A DNA stretch of 64,000 bases from NCBI GenBank assembly GCA_937951345.1, contig CALFCF010000051.1, positions 62,001 to 126,000 on the forward strand, read 5' to 3'. Below the pieces are notes generated by a model that ran no database searches, was not told the origin of the DNA, and saw nothing but the letters and a program-made list of their open reading frames with translations. Both the position numbers and the translations under genes were made by a program. Source of the DNA: an uncultured Granulosicoccaceae bacterium (GTDB lineage: Bacteria > Pseudomonadota > Gammaproteobacteria > Granulosicoccales > Granulosicoccaceae). Position 1 is the stretch's first letter. Each line of letters starts with the position of its first letter. This document shows, piece by piece, positions 25,743 to 60,115 of this stretch.

Positions 25743-28433
25743 TCAGTCATCCGCGTCACCGGCGTTGCCTTCTGATTCCGCGCTACCCGCATCGGTACCG
25801 TCAGCGCTGATATCACCCGTGCCTTCACTTCCCGCATCGGGGTTTTCATCGGAAGATTCGTCAGCGACATCTTCACCGGCAACTTCTTCATTGATGGCTG
25901 CAACTTCAACCAGATTTTCTTCGGCCCCGACCTTGATCAGTCGAACACCCTGTGTGTTGCGCCCCAACACACTGACTTCAGAAACAGCTGTTCTGACCAG
26001 CGTCCCGGCATCGGAAATCATCATGATCTGATCTTCTTCGCGCACCTGTACAGCGCCGATAACCGGACCATTACGATCAGTGGTCTTGATATCGATAACG
26101 CCCAGCCCGCCGCGACCTTTTGCCGGATAGTCTTCAGCACGGGTTCGCTTGCCATAGCCATTGCGGGTAGCAGTGAGTATTTCACCGTCACCTATAACGA
26201 TCAGCGCAATAACAACATCAGATTCAGGCATCTTGATACCACGTACCCCGGCCGCCGTTCGCCCCATGGTGCGCACATTTTCCTCTGAGAAACGCATGGC
26301 TCGTCCGCCACTGGAAATCAACATAACATCGCTCTTGCCGTCGGTTAGAGCAACATCAATGAGGAAGTCATCAACCCTTAAATCAATGGCGATAATGCCA
26401 TTGGTGCGAGGGCGTGAGAAATCCATTAACGAGGTCTTTTTAACGACACCCTTATTGGTGGCAAAGAACACGTATTGATCAGCAGAGAACTCACGGATGG
26501 TCAGTACCGCATTGACGCGCTCACCTTCTTCGAGCGGCAGCAGGTTGACGATCGGTCGTCCACGCGAGCCACGGCTTGCGACCGGTAGCTCATACACGCG
26601 CTTCCAATAGACTTTACCCACGCTCGTGAAAAACAGCACCGTATCGTGCGTGCTGGCGATAAACAATTTATCGACAAAATCTTCGTCCTTGACCGCAGTC
26701 GCTGACTTACCCCGACCACCACGTCGCTGTGCGCGATAATCTGACAATGGCTGGGCTTTTGCGTAACCACCGTGCGACAGTGTTACGACTACCGCCTCAT
26801 CCGCGATCAGATCTTCGACGGTCATTTCCGAATGGTCGATCTGAATTTCAGTTAGCCGCTGGTCGCCGTACTGGTCAATCATTTCGACCAGCTCGTCGCG
26901 AATCACCCGTCGCAAACGTTCCGGGTCTGTCAGTATTTCGAGTAAGTCCTCGATTCTCGTCAGAAGCTCTTTGTATTCTTCAACGATCTTGTCCTGCTCA
27001 AGACCGGTCAGGCGATGCAAGCGCAAATCGAGAATGGCTTGCGCCTGCACTTCAGTTAGTTGATATTTGCCATCAACCAACCCGAATTCGTCACTCAGAT
27101 TATCAGGCCGCGAAGCCGATGCACCGGCACGCTCCAACATACTGCTGACAACACCCGGCTCCCAGGTTTTTGCGACCAGGCCCTGTTTGGCAACAGCCGG
27201 TGATTCTGATTCACGAATCAGCTTAATGATCGGATCTATGTTCGCGAGTGCAACGGCCAAGCCCTCGAGAATATGGGCGCGTTCACGTGCTTTACGCAGT
27301 AAATAGAGCGTTCGGCGAGTAACGATTTCGCGTCGGTGTCTGATAAACGCGCCGAGCACTTCTTTCAGGTTAAGCAAGCGAGGCTGGCCATCCTGCAGCG
27401 CAACCATGTTGATACCGAAAACCACCTGCAGCTGCGTCTGCTTGTACAGCTGGTTGAGCAGAACATCACCGTTTTCGCCACGGCGTAGCTCGATAACAAC
27501 ACGCATACCGTCTTTATCTGACTCGTCGCGCAGTTCGCTGATGCCCTCGATCTTTTTCTCTTTGACCAGCTCAGCTATTTTCTCGAGCAGTCGGGCTTTA
27601 TTTACCTGATAGGGAAGCTCAGTAACAATGATGGTGTCTTTTTCGTTTTTTTCGTTGTGCTCCACTGTCGCCAGGGCACGGACATATATCTTGCCGCGAC
27701 CCGTACGATAAGCTTCCCGGATACCACGAGCGCCATTGATGATGCCGGCTGTCGGGAAATCCGGTCCGGGCAGATGTTCCATCAATCCTTCGATAGAAAT
27801 ATTCTCGTCGTCCAGCATCGCAACCGTGGCGTTAACGACTTCGCTCAAATTGTGTGGCGGAATATTTGTCGCCATACCAACGGCGATACCGGAAGAACCG
27901 TTAATCAGTAAATTCGGAATACGCGAGGGCAGAACCGACGGCTCGTGCTCTGAACCATCGTAGTTGGCAACAAAGTCAACGGTCTCTTTGTCGATGTCGG
28001 CCAGAAGTTCATGCGCAATTTTTGCCATGCGTACTTCGGTGTAACGCATGGCCGCAGGATTATCGCCATCGACCGAGCCGAAGTTACCCTGTCCGTCAAT
28101 GAGCATGTAACGCATCGCGAAAGGCTGCGCCATTCGCACCATCGTGTCGTAAATGGCAGAGTCGCCGTGTGGATGGTATTTACCCATCACATCACCGACG
28201 ACGCGCGCTGATTTACGGTAAGACTTGTTCCAGTCATTGCCCTGCTCGTGCATTGCGTAAAGCACGCGACGGTGAACCGGTTTCAAACCATCACGGACGT
28301 CAGGCAGCGCCCGACCGACAATGACACTCATCGCATAGGACAGATAAGAATCCCGCATCTCATCTTCGAGAAATATCGGGACTATCTCGCGAGCGAAATC
28401 TGTCGATGTATTTTCGTTATCGTCGTCAGACAT
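25743..28433 (-). CDS. gyrA: DNA gyrase subunit A
   Basis: [53 protein letters not shown], acidic C-terminal tail. Confidence 0.98.
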
Positions 28434-53552: not shown

Positions 53553-55784
53553 CTATTCGATCTCTAATTGCTGTACAGATTGAAAGCCACGTGGCAGTTT
53601 ACGACCACGCTGCCCCCGTTCGCCGAGGTAATTATCCAGTTCAGCATACTTGATAGTGGTGTGACGCTTACCGCTATAGATACGTAATTTCGCACCAACA
53701 GGTACAACAGCCACGGCAATCATGGATTCGAGGCCATCGCGAAACTTTTTGCCCGGTATACCAAACAGTCTGTTACCTTTACCGCGCGACATTTCCGGCA
53801 CATCTGCGAGCGGGAACACCAGCATACTGCCATTGCTGGAAACAACCGCAACCCGATCGGTTGCTACATCAGTTATTTTTACCGACGGTAGGACATCCGC
53901 ACCCTGTGGCACACTGACCACCGCTTTGCCTGATTTGTTTCGACTTTGCAGATTGCCAAGCTTGCCTACAAATCCGTAGCCCGCGCTGGTAGAAAACAGG
54001 TAACTCGTGTCATCTGCACCCATCATCACACTGACAAAGCTGGCACCATCAGGCGGCTTCAAACGACCACTGATTGGCTCACCCAGCCCGCGTGCTGACG
54101 GAAATCCGTGTGCCGGCACACAATAGACACGTCCGGTTGAGTCCAGAAACATCGCAGACGCATTAGTACGACCCTGTGCGGCACTCTGAAAATTATCACC
54201 ACTTTTGTAATGCAACGAGGATGGATCAACATCAAATCCTTTGGCTGCACGTACCCAACCACGCTCCGACAGAATAACCGTAACGGGTTCGCTGGGAACC
54301 AGATCGCTCTCTGACATTGCCTGCGCAGCGTCGCGCTTGACGATTGGCGAGCGTCTGTCGTCACCATAAATTTCGATATCTTCCTTGAGTTCGTTTTTAA
54401 CCAACGTACGCAAGCGTCGGTCAGAACCCAGCGTCGCTTGCAAACCATCACGCTCTTCGATAAGCGCTGTTTGCTCGTTCTGAATTTTCATTTCTTCAAG
54501 TTGCGCCAGATGACGCAGCTTGAGCTCGAGTATGGCTTCGGCCTGCTCATCTGAAATACCGAAGCGCTTCATCAAAACCGGCTTGGGTTCGTCGTTGTTG
54601 CGGATAATCTCGATAACCTCGTCGATATTGAGGTAGGCAACCATCAAACCCTCAAGAATATGCAGCCGCTTTTCAACACGATCAAGGCGCCACTGCAATT
54701 TTTTTCTAACAGTCTCGATGCGGTATTCCAACCACTCCTTTAATATAACGCGAAGATTCTTGACCTGCGGGCGTCCGTTCAAGCCAATCATGTTCATGTT
54801 GACCCGGTATGTTCGCTCCAGATCAGTGGTTGCAAATAAATGCTGCATAACCTCATCCTTGTCAATGCGGTTGCTGCGTGGCGATATAACAAGTCGTGTC
54901 GGATTTTCATGATCAGATTCGTCGCGCAAGTCCTCGATCATCGGCAACTTTTTAGCCAGCATTTGCGCTGCAATCTGTTCAAGAATTTTAGAACCGGAAA
55001 CCTGAAACGGCAGTTCGGTTACGACAATGTCAGGGCCTTCAGCACGATACACGGCTCGCATACGTAACGAACCATGACCAGTCTCGTAGATTTCGGTTAT
55101 TTCATCCTGTGATGAAATAACTTCAGCGGCAGTTGGGAAATCCGGCCCCTTGACATGCTGCATTAAATCAGCAACGGTCGCTTTCGGCTTTTCCAACAGA
55201 TGCACACAGGCAGCGCCCACTTCGCGTAAATTATGCGGCGGTATATCCGTTGCCATTCCCACTGCGATACCGGTCGTGCTGTTCAACAGGATATTCGGCA
55301 AACGCGACGGCAGTAACGTGGGCTCTTTGAGTGTGCCGTCGAAATTCGGCGCCCAATCAACCGTCCCCTGATCCAGCTCCTGCAGCAGAGATTTAGCAAA
55401 ACGCGTTAGTCGCGATTCTGTGTAGCGCATGGCGGCAAAGGATTTCGGATCATCCTGCGACCCCCAGTTGCCCTGACCATCGACCAGCGGATAGCGATAG
55501 GTAAACGGTTGGGCCATTAATACCATCGCTTCATAGCAGGCGGAATCACCGTGCGGATGATATTTTCCAAGCACATCCCCCACCGTACGCGCAGACTTTT
55601 TGTGTTTCGATGCAGCCGATAAGCCCAATTCAGACATTGCATAAACAATGCGTCGCTGCACCGGTTTTAGCCCATCGCTTATATGCGGCAGTGCACGATC
55701 GAGAATGACATACATCGAATAATCAAGATATGCTTTCTCGGTGTATTCGCTTAACGGTAGTTCTTCTATTTCAGTATCAGCCAT
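53553..55784 (-). CDS. parC: DNA topoisomerase IV subunit A
   Basis: [54 protein letters not shown]. Confidence 0.97.
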
Positions 55785-55848: not shown

Positions 55849-57561
55849 TTAAGCCAGCGTATTTCGCCGTTTGACAATGCAGTTAATCAGTCCGTTGGTC
55901 GAGGCATCGTGAGCTGTAGCGCTTTTGCCAGCCTCAATCTCCTGCAACACCTGTTTGGCAAGCTGTTTACCCAACTCCACGCCCCATTGATCAAACGGGT
56001 TGATATCCCAAATGACTGACTCGACAAACACTTTATGCTCGTAAAGTGCGATCAGCGCACCAAGGGAGCGCGGGTCTATAGTCTCTAACAATAGGGTATT
56101 GGTCGGGCGATTGCCGGAGAATGTCTTGTGCCCGGACAAACGTTTTATCTCGCTATCGGAGGCTCCCTGATCCTTCATTTCCATTGCCAGCGTTTCACGA
56201 TCTTTGCCACGCATGAGTGCTTCAGTTTGCGCTATACAATTCGCCAGCAACATCGGATGGTGACGCCCTACGGGGTTAAGACTTTCAACCGGCACAATGA
56301 AGTCGGCTGGTATCAGATGAGTCCCCTGGTGAACAAGCTGGAAATAAGCGTGCTGACCATTAGTGCCCGGTTCACCCCACACAATGGGCCCTGTGTTGTG
56401 GGCAACAGCACCTCCATCGCGCATCGCAGACTTGCCGTTACTTTCCATCGTCAGTTGCTGTAGGTAAGCTGGAAAACGATGTAAGTACTGATCATACGGG
56501 GCTATCAAATGACTGACTGCACCAAAAAAATTCACATACCAGACAGTTAACAACGCCATGATTACCGGCATATTCTCAGTCAGCTTGGCACTCTGAAAAT
56601 GCAGATCCATATCATGCGCACCCTGCAGTAATTCCTCAAAGCGCTCAAAGCCAACCGCACAGGCGACTGACAAACCAATCGCAGACCAGAGCGAATAGCG
56701 GCCACCCACCCAATCCCAGAATGCAAACATATTGGATTCATCGATACCGAACGCGGTGACAGCATCCCGGTTGGTTGACAGTGCAACGAAATGCGAAGCG
56801 ACATGCTGCTTGTCTTTGGCGGACTCCAGAAACCAGTCACGTGCCGTGTGTGCATTGGCTAGCGTTTCCTGGGTCGTAAAGGTTTTTGATGCAATGATGA
56901 ACAACGTTGTTGCCGGATTAAGATTCTGCAGCGCTTTGGTGATATGACTACCATCCACATTGGATACAAAGTGCAACGACAGATTCGGTTTACAATAGCG
57001 GTGCAGCGCCTCTGTGACCATCTGTGGCCCGAGATCTGAACCACCAATACCTATATTGACAATATCGGTTATGGCCTCGCCGCTATACCCTTGCCACTGA
57101 CCGCTTCTGACAGCCTCGCTAAAGGTACTCATCTGCGACAGTACTCGACGGATGTCCGGCATGACATCCTGACCGGCAGTCATCACCGGACGATCAGAAC
57201 GATTGCGCAACGCTGTGTGTAAAGCGGCACGCTGCTCGGTGTTATTCACTGTCTCACCGGACATCAAATCGCTGATGCGATTTTGCAAATCCCGCTCTTT
57301 AGCCAGATTAACCAGTAGCGGTAACGTGTCGTTGCTAATACGGTTTTTGGAATAGTCAAGAAAGAGCCCAGCTGCTTGCATTGACAGATTGTCGAAGCGC
57401 CCGGTATCGCGCGCGAACATATCCAACATATGTTCACCTTTGATTTGCTGATAGTGATCAGCCAGTGGCTGCCAGGCATTCAGGGACATCAGGTCAGACA
57501 TTAATCTATGCTCGCTCAGGTGGTTGGTGCTTGTTCGCGCTGTGTGCTTGCTGGATGACAC
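55849..57561 (-). CDS. pgi: glucose-6-phosphate isomerase
   Basis: [57 protein letters not shown]. Confidence 0.97.
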
Positions 57562-57802: not shown

Positions 57803-58477
57803 ATGAAACCTGCCATCTGCCCTGAATATGCCAATCTCAGCCCGTCTGAGATGCTGTTGAAACATTTGAGAAATGAACATGCAGCGTCGCAGCAATCGGG
57901 CTGCTCGGAATTGATTATTGTTGAAGGTAAATCGGCTGCTGATGCGGTAGATCAGGTCAGGGACAGACAGTTCCAAAGTATTTACCGACTGCAGGGCAAG
58001 ATACCCAACCCGGACAATTACAGCAGGGAACGACTGCAGCAACATGCCCAGCTCGGTCCGCTTTTACAGCTGTTAGGCGAGCAGACAGTTGCCGGGGAAT
58101 CCCTTGACTCGTTAGCACCGCAGGCACCTGAGTCTATCTCTCAGATTGACTTTGTTATTCTGCTGCAGGACCCGGATATCGACGGTGTTCACAACATATC
58201 ACTATTGCTTCGCTGGTTTCAGCGTTATCTGCTACTGTGGATTCATACCCGGCGCTTGCGAGTCTGCCAGCTACCACTGGCAATAGTCTCCGGCGACGAC
58301 AGGCGAACGCAGTATGTATATGATAAGCACAGGCTCCAGGATGCTTTAACAGACCCTACGATGCGCGCAGACTATTACAAAGGTGTTGCTTCCATTAACA
58401 AGGAGCAACGCGCGCGGCTACTTGCGTATCCATTGAACGAGCGATCAAGACCTGTAGTCTCAAGCGTATCCAACTAA
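57803..58477 (+). CDS. stand-alone GyrB/ParE-like Toprim protein, no ATPase half
   Basis: ELIIVEGKSAADAVDQVRDRQFQSIYRLQGKIPN; FVILLQDPDIDGVHNISLLLRWFQRY; ADYYKGVASINKEQRARLLAYPLNERSRPVV. Confidence 0.75.
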   Translation: MKPAICPEYANLSPSEMLLKHLRNEHAASQQSGCSELIIVEGKSAADAVDQVRDRQFQSIYRLQGKIPNPDNYSRERLQQHAQLGPLLQLLGEQTVAGESLDSLAPQAPESISQIDFVILLQDPDIDGVHNISLLLRWFQRYLLLWIHTRRLRVCQLPLAIVSGDDRRTQYVYDKHRLQDALTDPTMRADYYKGVASINKEQRARLLAYPLNERSRPVVSSVSN

Positions 58478-58558: not shown

Positions 58559-60115
58559 ATGAACAGCACAATCGAAATTCCACTGTGGTTGTTATTCGTT
58601 CTTGTAGCACTCGCTGTGGTGACGTCACTCCAGTATTTTCTTTTACCACCGGTAAGACGCTTGATGCGCCGCCGCGCTAATCGGGTGATCGATGAAGTCA
58701 ACTCGCGACTCGCGCTGGAACTACCTTCGTTTAAACTGACAAAACGCGAAGTGCTGATCGACCGTCTTGTTTATCACCCCGATATCATGCAGGAAGTAGA
58801 GGAACGCGCACGTGCAGAAAACACCTCGCGCGATGTAATTCTCCAGCAGGTGCGTGACTATGCCACTGAAATTGTTCCCGCCTTCAACGCCTGGCTGTAT
58901 TTCAAATGGGCATACTGGGTGGCGCGACGCATAGTACATGTTCTGTATCGCGTGCGACTGGGTTTTTCCAATGATCAGGCTCTGAAGAACCTGCCTGCTA
59001 ATGCCAGTGTTGTGTTTGTTATGAACCACCGCAGCAACATGGACTACATTATTGCCACCTATCTTGCGGCGGAACGAACGGCACTTTCATACGCCGTAGG
59101 AGAATGGGCACGTGTGTGGCCGCTGCAACAATTAATTCGATCAATGGGTGGTTATTTTGTCAGACGTGATTCAGGCGACAGTCTGTATCGTCAGGTGCTG
59201 CAATGCTATGTTCAAATGGCTGCCGAAGGTGGTGTACCACAGGCGGTTTTCCCGGAAGGCGGTTTATCACGCGACGGTAAGCTTCGCGCGCCAAAGCTCG
59301 GTTTACTGGGTTATCTGACCAAGCCATTTCTCGATCGCCAACGTTTACAACACAGCGACGAGCCTACATCTACCGGCATACAAGGCGTCACCGAATCAGA
59401 CAATACGCCTTCGACAGACAGCGCACACGAACTTGTGTTCATACCTGTAGGAATAAACTACGATCGTGTTCTGGAAGACAGAACACTATTGGCTTCACAG
59501 GATAAATCCCGACCTCGCGCAGGTACCTTTTTTACCATCAAACGTTTTTTCGGTTTTGTAGGCCATCAAATTCGACTCGTGTTGACCGGGCGCTGGTATC
59601 GTTTCGGTTACGCTTGTGTCAATTTCGGTACACCGTTATTGCTATCAGACTGGCTCGCATCCAGCAAGCTAGCTGGAAAGAATAACGCCGACTGGCATCA
59701 TCAGGTTGAGGCGCTGGCAGAGGAATTGATGTCCCGTATCGGTTCAATCATTCCTATATTGCCTGTTGCCGTTGTTGCAAGCATCGTTCGGGATAGAGCA
59801 TCCGCTCTTCCGGAAAAGGGTCTTAGTGAGATCGATATCAAACAACTGTCAGCAACCATGATGGACCGATTGTCAACCGGTAACTCACCTGTCTATATAC
59901 CGAGAAACGATCTTGATTATGCGGTAACTGTCGGGCTTCGGATGCTGGTACTGCGCCATATGCTGATTGATGACGATGGGTGGTATCGCATCAATCCGGA
60001 CAACGCTGATCTGCTTGACTATTATGCTTCCTCAATTGAGCACTTGTGGCCGGCAACCGATGACACCGGAACTACCGTCGAACAGCAGCAGCAGGCGCCG
60101 GCAGACTTTGCCTGA
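58559..60115 (+). CDS. PlsC/PlsB-type glycerolipid acyltransferase
   Basis: NHRSNMDYI (HxxxxD) and VFPEGGLSRDGKLRAPKLGLLGYL motifs. Confidence 0.82.
   Translation: MNSTIEIPLWLLFVLVALAVVTSLQYFLLPPVRRLMRRRANRVIDEVNSRLALELPSFKLTKREVLIDRLVYHPDIMQEVEERARAENTSRDVILQQVRDYATEIVPAFNAWLYFKWAYWVARRIVHVLYRVRLGFSNDQALKNLPANASVVFVMNHRSNMDYIIATYLAAERTALSYAVGEWARVWPLQQLIRSMGGYFVRRDSGDSLYRQVLQCYVQMAAEGGVPQAVFPEGGLSRDGKLRAPKLGLLGYLTKPFLDRQRLQHSDEPTSTGIQGVTESDNTPSTDSAHELVFIPVGINYDRVLEDRTLLASQDKSRPRAGTFFTIKRFFGFVGHQIRLVLTGRWYRFGYACVNFGTPLLLSDWLASSKLAGKNNADWHHQVEALAEELMSRIGSIIPILPVAVVASIVRDRASALPEKGLSEIDIKQLSATMMDRLSTGNSPVYIPRNDLDYAVTVGLRMLVLRHMLIDDDGWYRINPDNADLLDYYASSIEHLWPATDDTGTTVEQQQQAPADFA

Follow-up and report, generated by a model that had tools for sequence, protein, structure and literature searches.

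A conserved and previously unnamed protein family, in which the type IIA Toprim domain is encoded as a gene of its own, was recognized from a 224-residue ORF in a 64,000-nucleotide stretch of DNA (the window) from an uncultured Granulosicoccaceae bacterium. Drugs target type IIA topoisomerases, which are believed to depend on the ATPase half of the B subunit; a free Toprim gene would, if true, mean that ATP-independent gyrase-like complexes exist in cells, or that the type IIA Toprim has become an enzyme in its own right. The finding is also relevant to annotation. No dedicated model in Pfam, NCBIfam, PHROGs or PADLOC matched the family, which the libraries searched recognized only by generic gyrB/parE or Toprim models, and the copy on the Thiodictyon plasmid pTs417 (L195; NZ_CP020371.1, 7995-8675) is annotated only as 'toprim domain-containing protein' (WP_100922781.1). 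No prior description of a stand-alone type IIA Toprim family was found in the open-access literature.

Table 1. The Toprim gene, its diagnostic codons and the neighbouring genes (window positions)
Feature	Position	Strand	Remark
Stand-alone type IIA Toprim protein	57803..58477	+	224 aa, ATG start
Codon of Glu41 (VEGKSA; catalytic Glu of Toprim)	57923..57925	+	invariant in 94 stand-alones and 52 GyrB/ParE
Codon of Gln64 (QGK-x-x-N family signature)	57992..57994	+	all GyrB/ParE examined have R/K
Codons of Asp123-Pro-Asp125-Ile-Asp127 (DPDIDG; metal-binding acids)	58169..58183	+	
YKGVA motif (GyrB YKGLG equivalent)	58376..58390	+	start of tail region
gyrA catalytic region	26889..28313	-	candidate partner, same contig (contig 88889-90313; window starts 62001)
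parC	53553..55784	-	neighbour
pgi	55849..57561	-	divergent neighbour
Acyltransferase-like gene	58559..60115	+	downstream, same strand; function read by eye

The sequence-only reading had described the ORF as a type IIA Toprim protein without the ATPase half, and the library searches bore this out. NCBIfam gyrB/parE models covered residues 28-202 (E 4.5e-19 to 1.4e-10), the matches being confined to the Toprim half of the models, and Pfam Toprim matched at 2.6e-9, above the Pfam cut-off. ATPase, transducer and GyrB tail families gave no Pfam match in the ORF; the GHKL ATPase and transducer expected of a B subunit (PF02518/PF00204) were thus absent by Pfam. The GyrB C-terminal tail (PF00986), unmatched in the window protein, matched below the cut-off in several relatives, and the region aligns; the ORF comprises a complete type IIA Toprim domain and probably most of the tail. 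The long-frame members of the family showed only Toprim and weak tail matches in Pfam, with no fusion to other domains. ParE and GyrB Toprims were the nearest sequences among solved structures. When the AlphaFold model (71 related sequences; pLDDT 85.7, pTM 0.82) was searched with Foldseek, ParE/GyrB structures came first (best E 1.7e-14), with TM values of approximately 0.53-0.67 by query length among the best 50 matches, so that the fold is that of a type IIA Toprim. Chance resemblance is excluded by these E-values, the fold match and the 20 relatives in the same order. The ORF also stands as a gene of its own, as had been claimed, with a gap of approximately 240 bp to pgi and the parC end about 2 kb off. 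A scan for promoters and terminators gave nothing beyond chance.

The window protein has the Glu and the DxDxDG of a Toprim. Glu41 and Asp123/125/127, previously picked out by eye as the full acidic set, lined up with the Toprim acids of all 52 GyrB/ParE sequences. Near-universal residues in the approximately 94 members were E36, E41, G42, K66, N69, D123, D125, D127, G128, H130, P158 and G194, and P124, A126, A196 and C207, which are changes relative to GyrB/ParE, were found in most of them. The DNA-contact motifs expected of a B subunit, EGDSAGGSAKQ and PL(R/K)GK, were not retained: the family is without the GGSAKQ stretch, Glu83 and Glu197, Asp43 is not fixed, and PL(R/K)GK is replaced by (M/L)QGK. 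Q64 was present in all 94 aligned stand-alones, whereas all 52 GyrB/ParE had R or K; 68 of the loci had been fetched with a Gln-containing pattern and are not independent evidence of this invariance, which comes from the window copy and 25 others (21 from profile/BLAST searches and four via another pattern), all with Gln. P124, untouched by this bias, was found in 67 of the 68 pattern-fetched loci but in only 13 of the 21 profile/BLAST loci. In Staphylococcus aureus GyrB, the drug site at the cleaved DNA is lined by Arg458 of PLRGK and Asp437 of EGDSA, two residues whose conservation extends from bacteria to humans (PMC4686662), and the EGDS and PLRGK motifs contact the G-segment (PMC7614492).

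Stand-alone homologues with the conserved acids were found in several phyla, namely in Granulosicoccaceae, Planctomycetota (many of them Pirellulales), Beta- and Gammaproteobacteria and a few other taxa; all distribution counts are lower bounds. Besides the window's own genome, 20 of 48 genomes of its order carried a relative, one cut by a contig end included, and a class-wide sample of 369 genomes yielded two more at a strict cut-off. In the order of Adhaeretor the gene was present in 10 of 118 genomes, Adhaeretor included, and a Planctomycetota sample of 148 added at most about one genome at the cut-off used. When GTDB genomes were scanned with a pattern, 80 loci were obtained, the majority being stand-alone ORFs roughly 200-290 aa long, with Planctomycetota, Burkholderiales, Lysobacter and Methylotenera among their sources; two of the loci (L162, L164) were full-length GyrB, and the taxon labels of some MAG loci are clearly doubtful. 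The pattern was drawn from a closer subset, all order members together being too divergent for one. A single-protein scan of GTDB genome contigs returned no relatives. The gene is patchily distributed. Two copies looked frameshifted or shortened, one being split in two frames (L161, 5845-6563) and the other truncated (L142, 2090-2632), and the gene can therefore be lost.

The neighbourhood of the gene differed between lineages. In the window and in three genomes related to it, the gene lies between pgi-parC and the acyltransferase gene; in other genomes it adjoined proQ, dnaX, MATE/PNPase genes, a nitrilase gene, a DUF1559 gene and others. A ProQ/FinO gene, identified by a Pfam run on one of the genomes, immediately preceded the Toprim gene and shared its strand in 14 other Granulosicoccaceae (L034-L052), with a gap of 6-105 bp in all but one, where it was 287 bp; the two genes possibly form an operon limited to the Granulosicoccaceae lineage. 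The Thiodictyon pTs417 copy follows an ATP-dependent helicase gene and, just upstream of it, an RNB-domain ribonuclease gene. No operon partner was conserved across lineages, the gene was found neither linked to nor co-occurring with any one A subunit, and PADLOC gave no defence-system match. From gene order, we take it to be an orphan gene that lacks a fixed partner.

Intact gyrB and parE, which the sequence-only reading had advised locating elsewhere in the genome, were found on other contigs; since both are intact, the gene is an additional Toprim rather than a fragment of the genome's sole parE. The genome's gyrA and parC are also intact and are its only two GyrA-family genes; both lie inside the window, gyrA approximately 29 kb and parC approximately 2 kb from the Toprim gene. 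An extra ATPase/transducer half was not found in this genome. The complete genome of Adhaeretor mobilis (G413; its Toprim gene is L128) encodes one GyrA, one GyrB and the stand-alone Toprim, and neither a second GyrA/ParC nor topo IV was found there. ParC thus cannot be the general partner, and the special link to parC that had been suspected found no support, its linkage being limited to the window and the three related genomes. Family hosts carry GyrA and full GyrB; among the 15 drafts checked, the GyrB ATPase half was undetected in two (G424, G429), in which GyrA was also broken by contig ends. In the hosts checked, there was no extra GyrA/ParC, and no A subunit or ATPase half dedicated to the stand-alone Toprim was found; the protein may share the GyrA of the host.

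Purifying selection acts in most of the close pairs. The dN/dS of close planctomycete pairs was mostly about 0.1-0.2, well below 1, rising to 0.3-0.4 in two pairs by at least one of the two methods, and that of the best Granulosicoccaceae pair was about 0.1. The earlier argument that the retained acids speak against simple decay is supported by both the acids and these ratios. In the window lineage, synonymous sites were saturated, and the Toprim protein was 32-40% identical across the syntenic genomes while its neighbours were 55-85% identical. Of 39 columns conserved in the family, 13 are changed in the window copy, a number that puts it joint second among the 94 members. Because all acids are kept, we read the window copy as fast-evolving; constraint on it may be weakened.

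The stand-alone Toprim could work as an ATPase-free B subunit pairing with GyrA, a reading by analogy that we favour tentatively and place somewhat short of an even chance. The protein would dock at the DNA gate, more probably that of GyrA than that of ParC, and supply the Mg2+ site for the A-subunit tyrosine. The outcome would be either ATP-independent cleavage and resealing (relaxation or nicking), or a gyrase tuned by the Toprim replacing GyrB on part of the GyrA pool. An isolated 207-aa GyrB Toprim of Mycobacterium tuberculosis (TopBK, residues 448-654), likewise an ATPase-free type IIA Toprim of similar size, cleaves DNA, and nicks some of it, when combined with GyrA, either full-length or the core (PMC2923608). 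ATPase-deleted gyrase, which also retains a type IIA Toprim module but no ATPase, can relax DNA in the absence of ATP and does so better than the intact enzyme, whereas topo IV does not (PMC3763546); GyrA is therefore preferred over ParC as the partner, and the presence of GyrA alone in A. mobilis also points to GyrA rather than the neighbouring parC. Consistent with a B subunit, the protein is a near-complete GyrB Toprim, sharing with the GyrB/ParE C-terminal region the fold, the motif order, GK..N, DGxH and the KG of YKGLG; the acids, GK, N69, H130, P158 and G194 are kept in nearly all members, dN/dS is purifying and hosts have GyrA with full GyrB. The family differs from GyrB/ParE in lacking the GHKL ATPase/transducer and in forming its own clade. 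Against the B-subunit reading, the G-segment motifs are changed in the alignment (Asp43, Q64, Glu83, Glu197, GGSAKQ), no A-subunit linkage was found and the window copy is off at one third of the conserved columns.

Another ATPase-free GyrB fragment, which we take to be comparable, is the nu fragment of Escherichia coli (topoisomerase II'). All three comparators are laboratory or proteolytic GyrB fragments, whereas the family is encoded as a conserved gene in its own right, its motifs being altered and its activity predicted. Phage T4 gp39/gp60 also splits the GyrB-type region between genes; there, the profile resembling the small subunit (phrog_7229) is limited to the DxD half, whereas the whole Toprim lies in one gene in the family and is accompanied by no separate ATPase gene. 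It is conceivable, albeit rather unlikely, that scattered bacteria encode a dedicated ATPase-free B subunit which swaps onto GyrA to give a third, ATP-independent type IIA topoisomerase, a counterpart of nu/topoisomerase II' with a re-tuned DNA gate. The family Gln would then sit where the Lys/Arg of GyrB lines the drug site at the cleaved DNA.

The main alternative to an ATPase-free B subunit is a phosphodiesterase whose free-standing Toprim would act on RNA or DNA independently of GyrA, much like RNase M5 or the Toprim nucleases of OLD/PARIS systems; we consider it unlikely. The altered DNA-contact motifs leave room for an independent nuclease, since the residues of the DNA gate are replaced while the full acidic set is kept in a stand-alone architecture, with DPD instead of DAD in most members; the proQ/FinO genes upstream in 14 Granulosicoccaceae and the RNB gene on the Thiodictyon plasmid fit as well. 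The Glu and Asp-x-Asp are shared with RNase M5 and the OLD family, whose Toprim can act with no type IIA A subunit, but neither Pfam nor PADLOC matched the stand-alone Toprim to these families. Moreover, type IIA Toprims are its closest match in both sequence and fold, the tail region appears to be kept, and the RNA-gene neighbours are not common to the whole family.

Less likely still is a non-catalytic competitor or regulator which occupies the Toprim dock of GyrA/ParC and damps gyrase or topo IV, or serves as a gyrase-poison decoy. Such a protein needs the docking surface only, and the patchy, accessory distribution would suit it, as would the finding that in the window lineage no neighbouring protein changes as fast. 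A pure decoy, however, need not keep E41 and D123/125/127, which nearly all members do, nor does it account for the new residues fixed around the active site (Q64, P124, C207).

A decaying fragment of a duplicated parE or gyrB is very improbable and largely refuted for the family, for although few members have diverged as far as the window copy and some relatives look broken, the family is a single clade apart from all GyrB/ParE, spans several phyla, mostly has dN/dS well below 1 and has intact acids in the window copy. Debris of a broken parE was ruled out by the intact gyrB, parE, gyrA and parC and by the separate clade. In the tree of 146 Toprim sequences, one branch with a support of 100/100 parted the 94 stand-alones (90, plus four with a long open frame and no Pfam ATPase domain) from the 52 full-length GyrB/ParE. 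The family is best explained by an ancient split from GyrB/ParE. Inside the clade, a Granulosicoccaceae group (with one genome of another family) stood apart from a Planctomycetota/Proteobacteria group, the branching order being weak on the short alignment of approximately 190 columns; the phyla are intermixed in the latter group, which suggests lateral transfer. As for a phage origin, the second scan of viral sequences gave no family member; viral relatives lacked the family Gln, none had a short stand-alone frame, and they were ordinary topoisomerase subunits.
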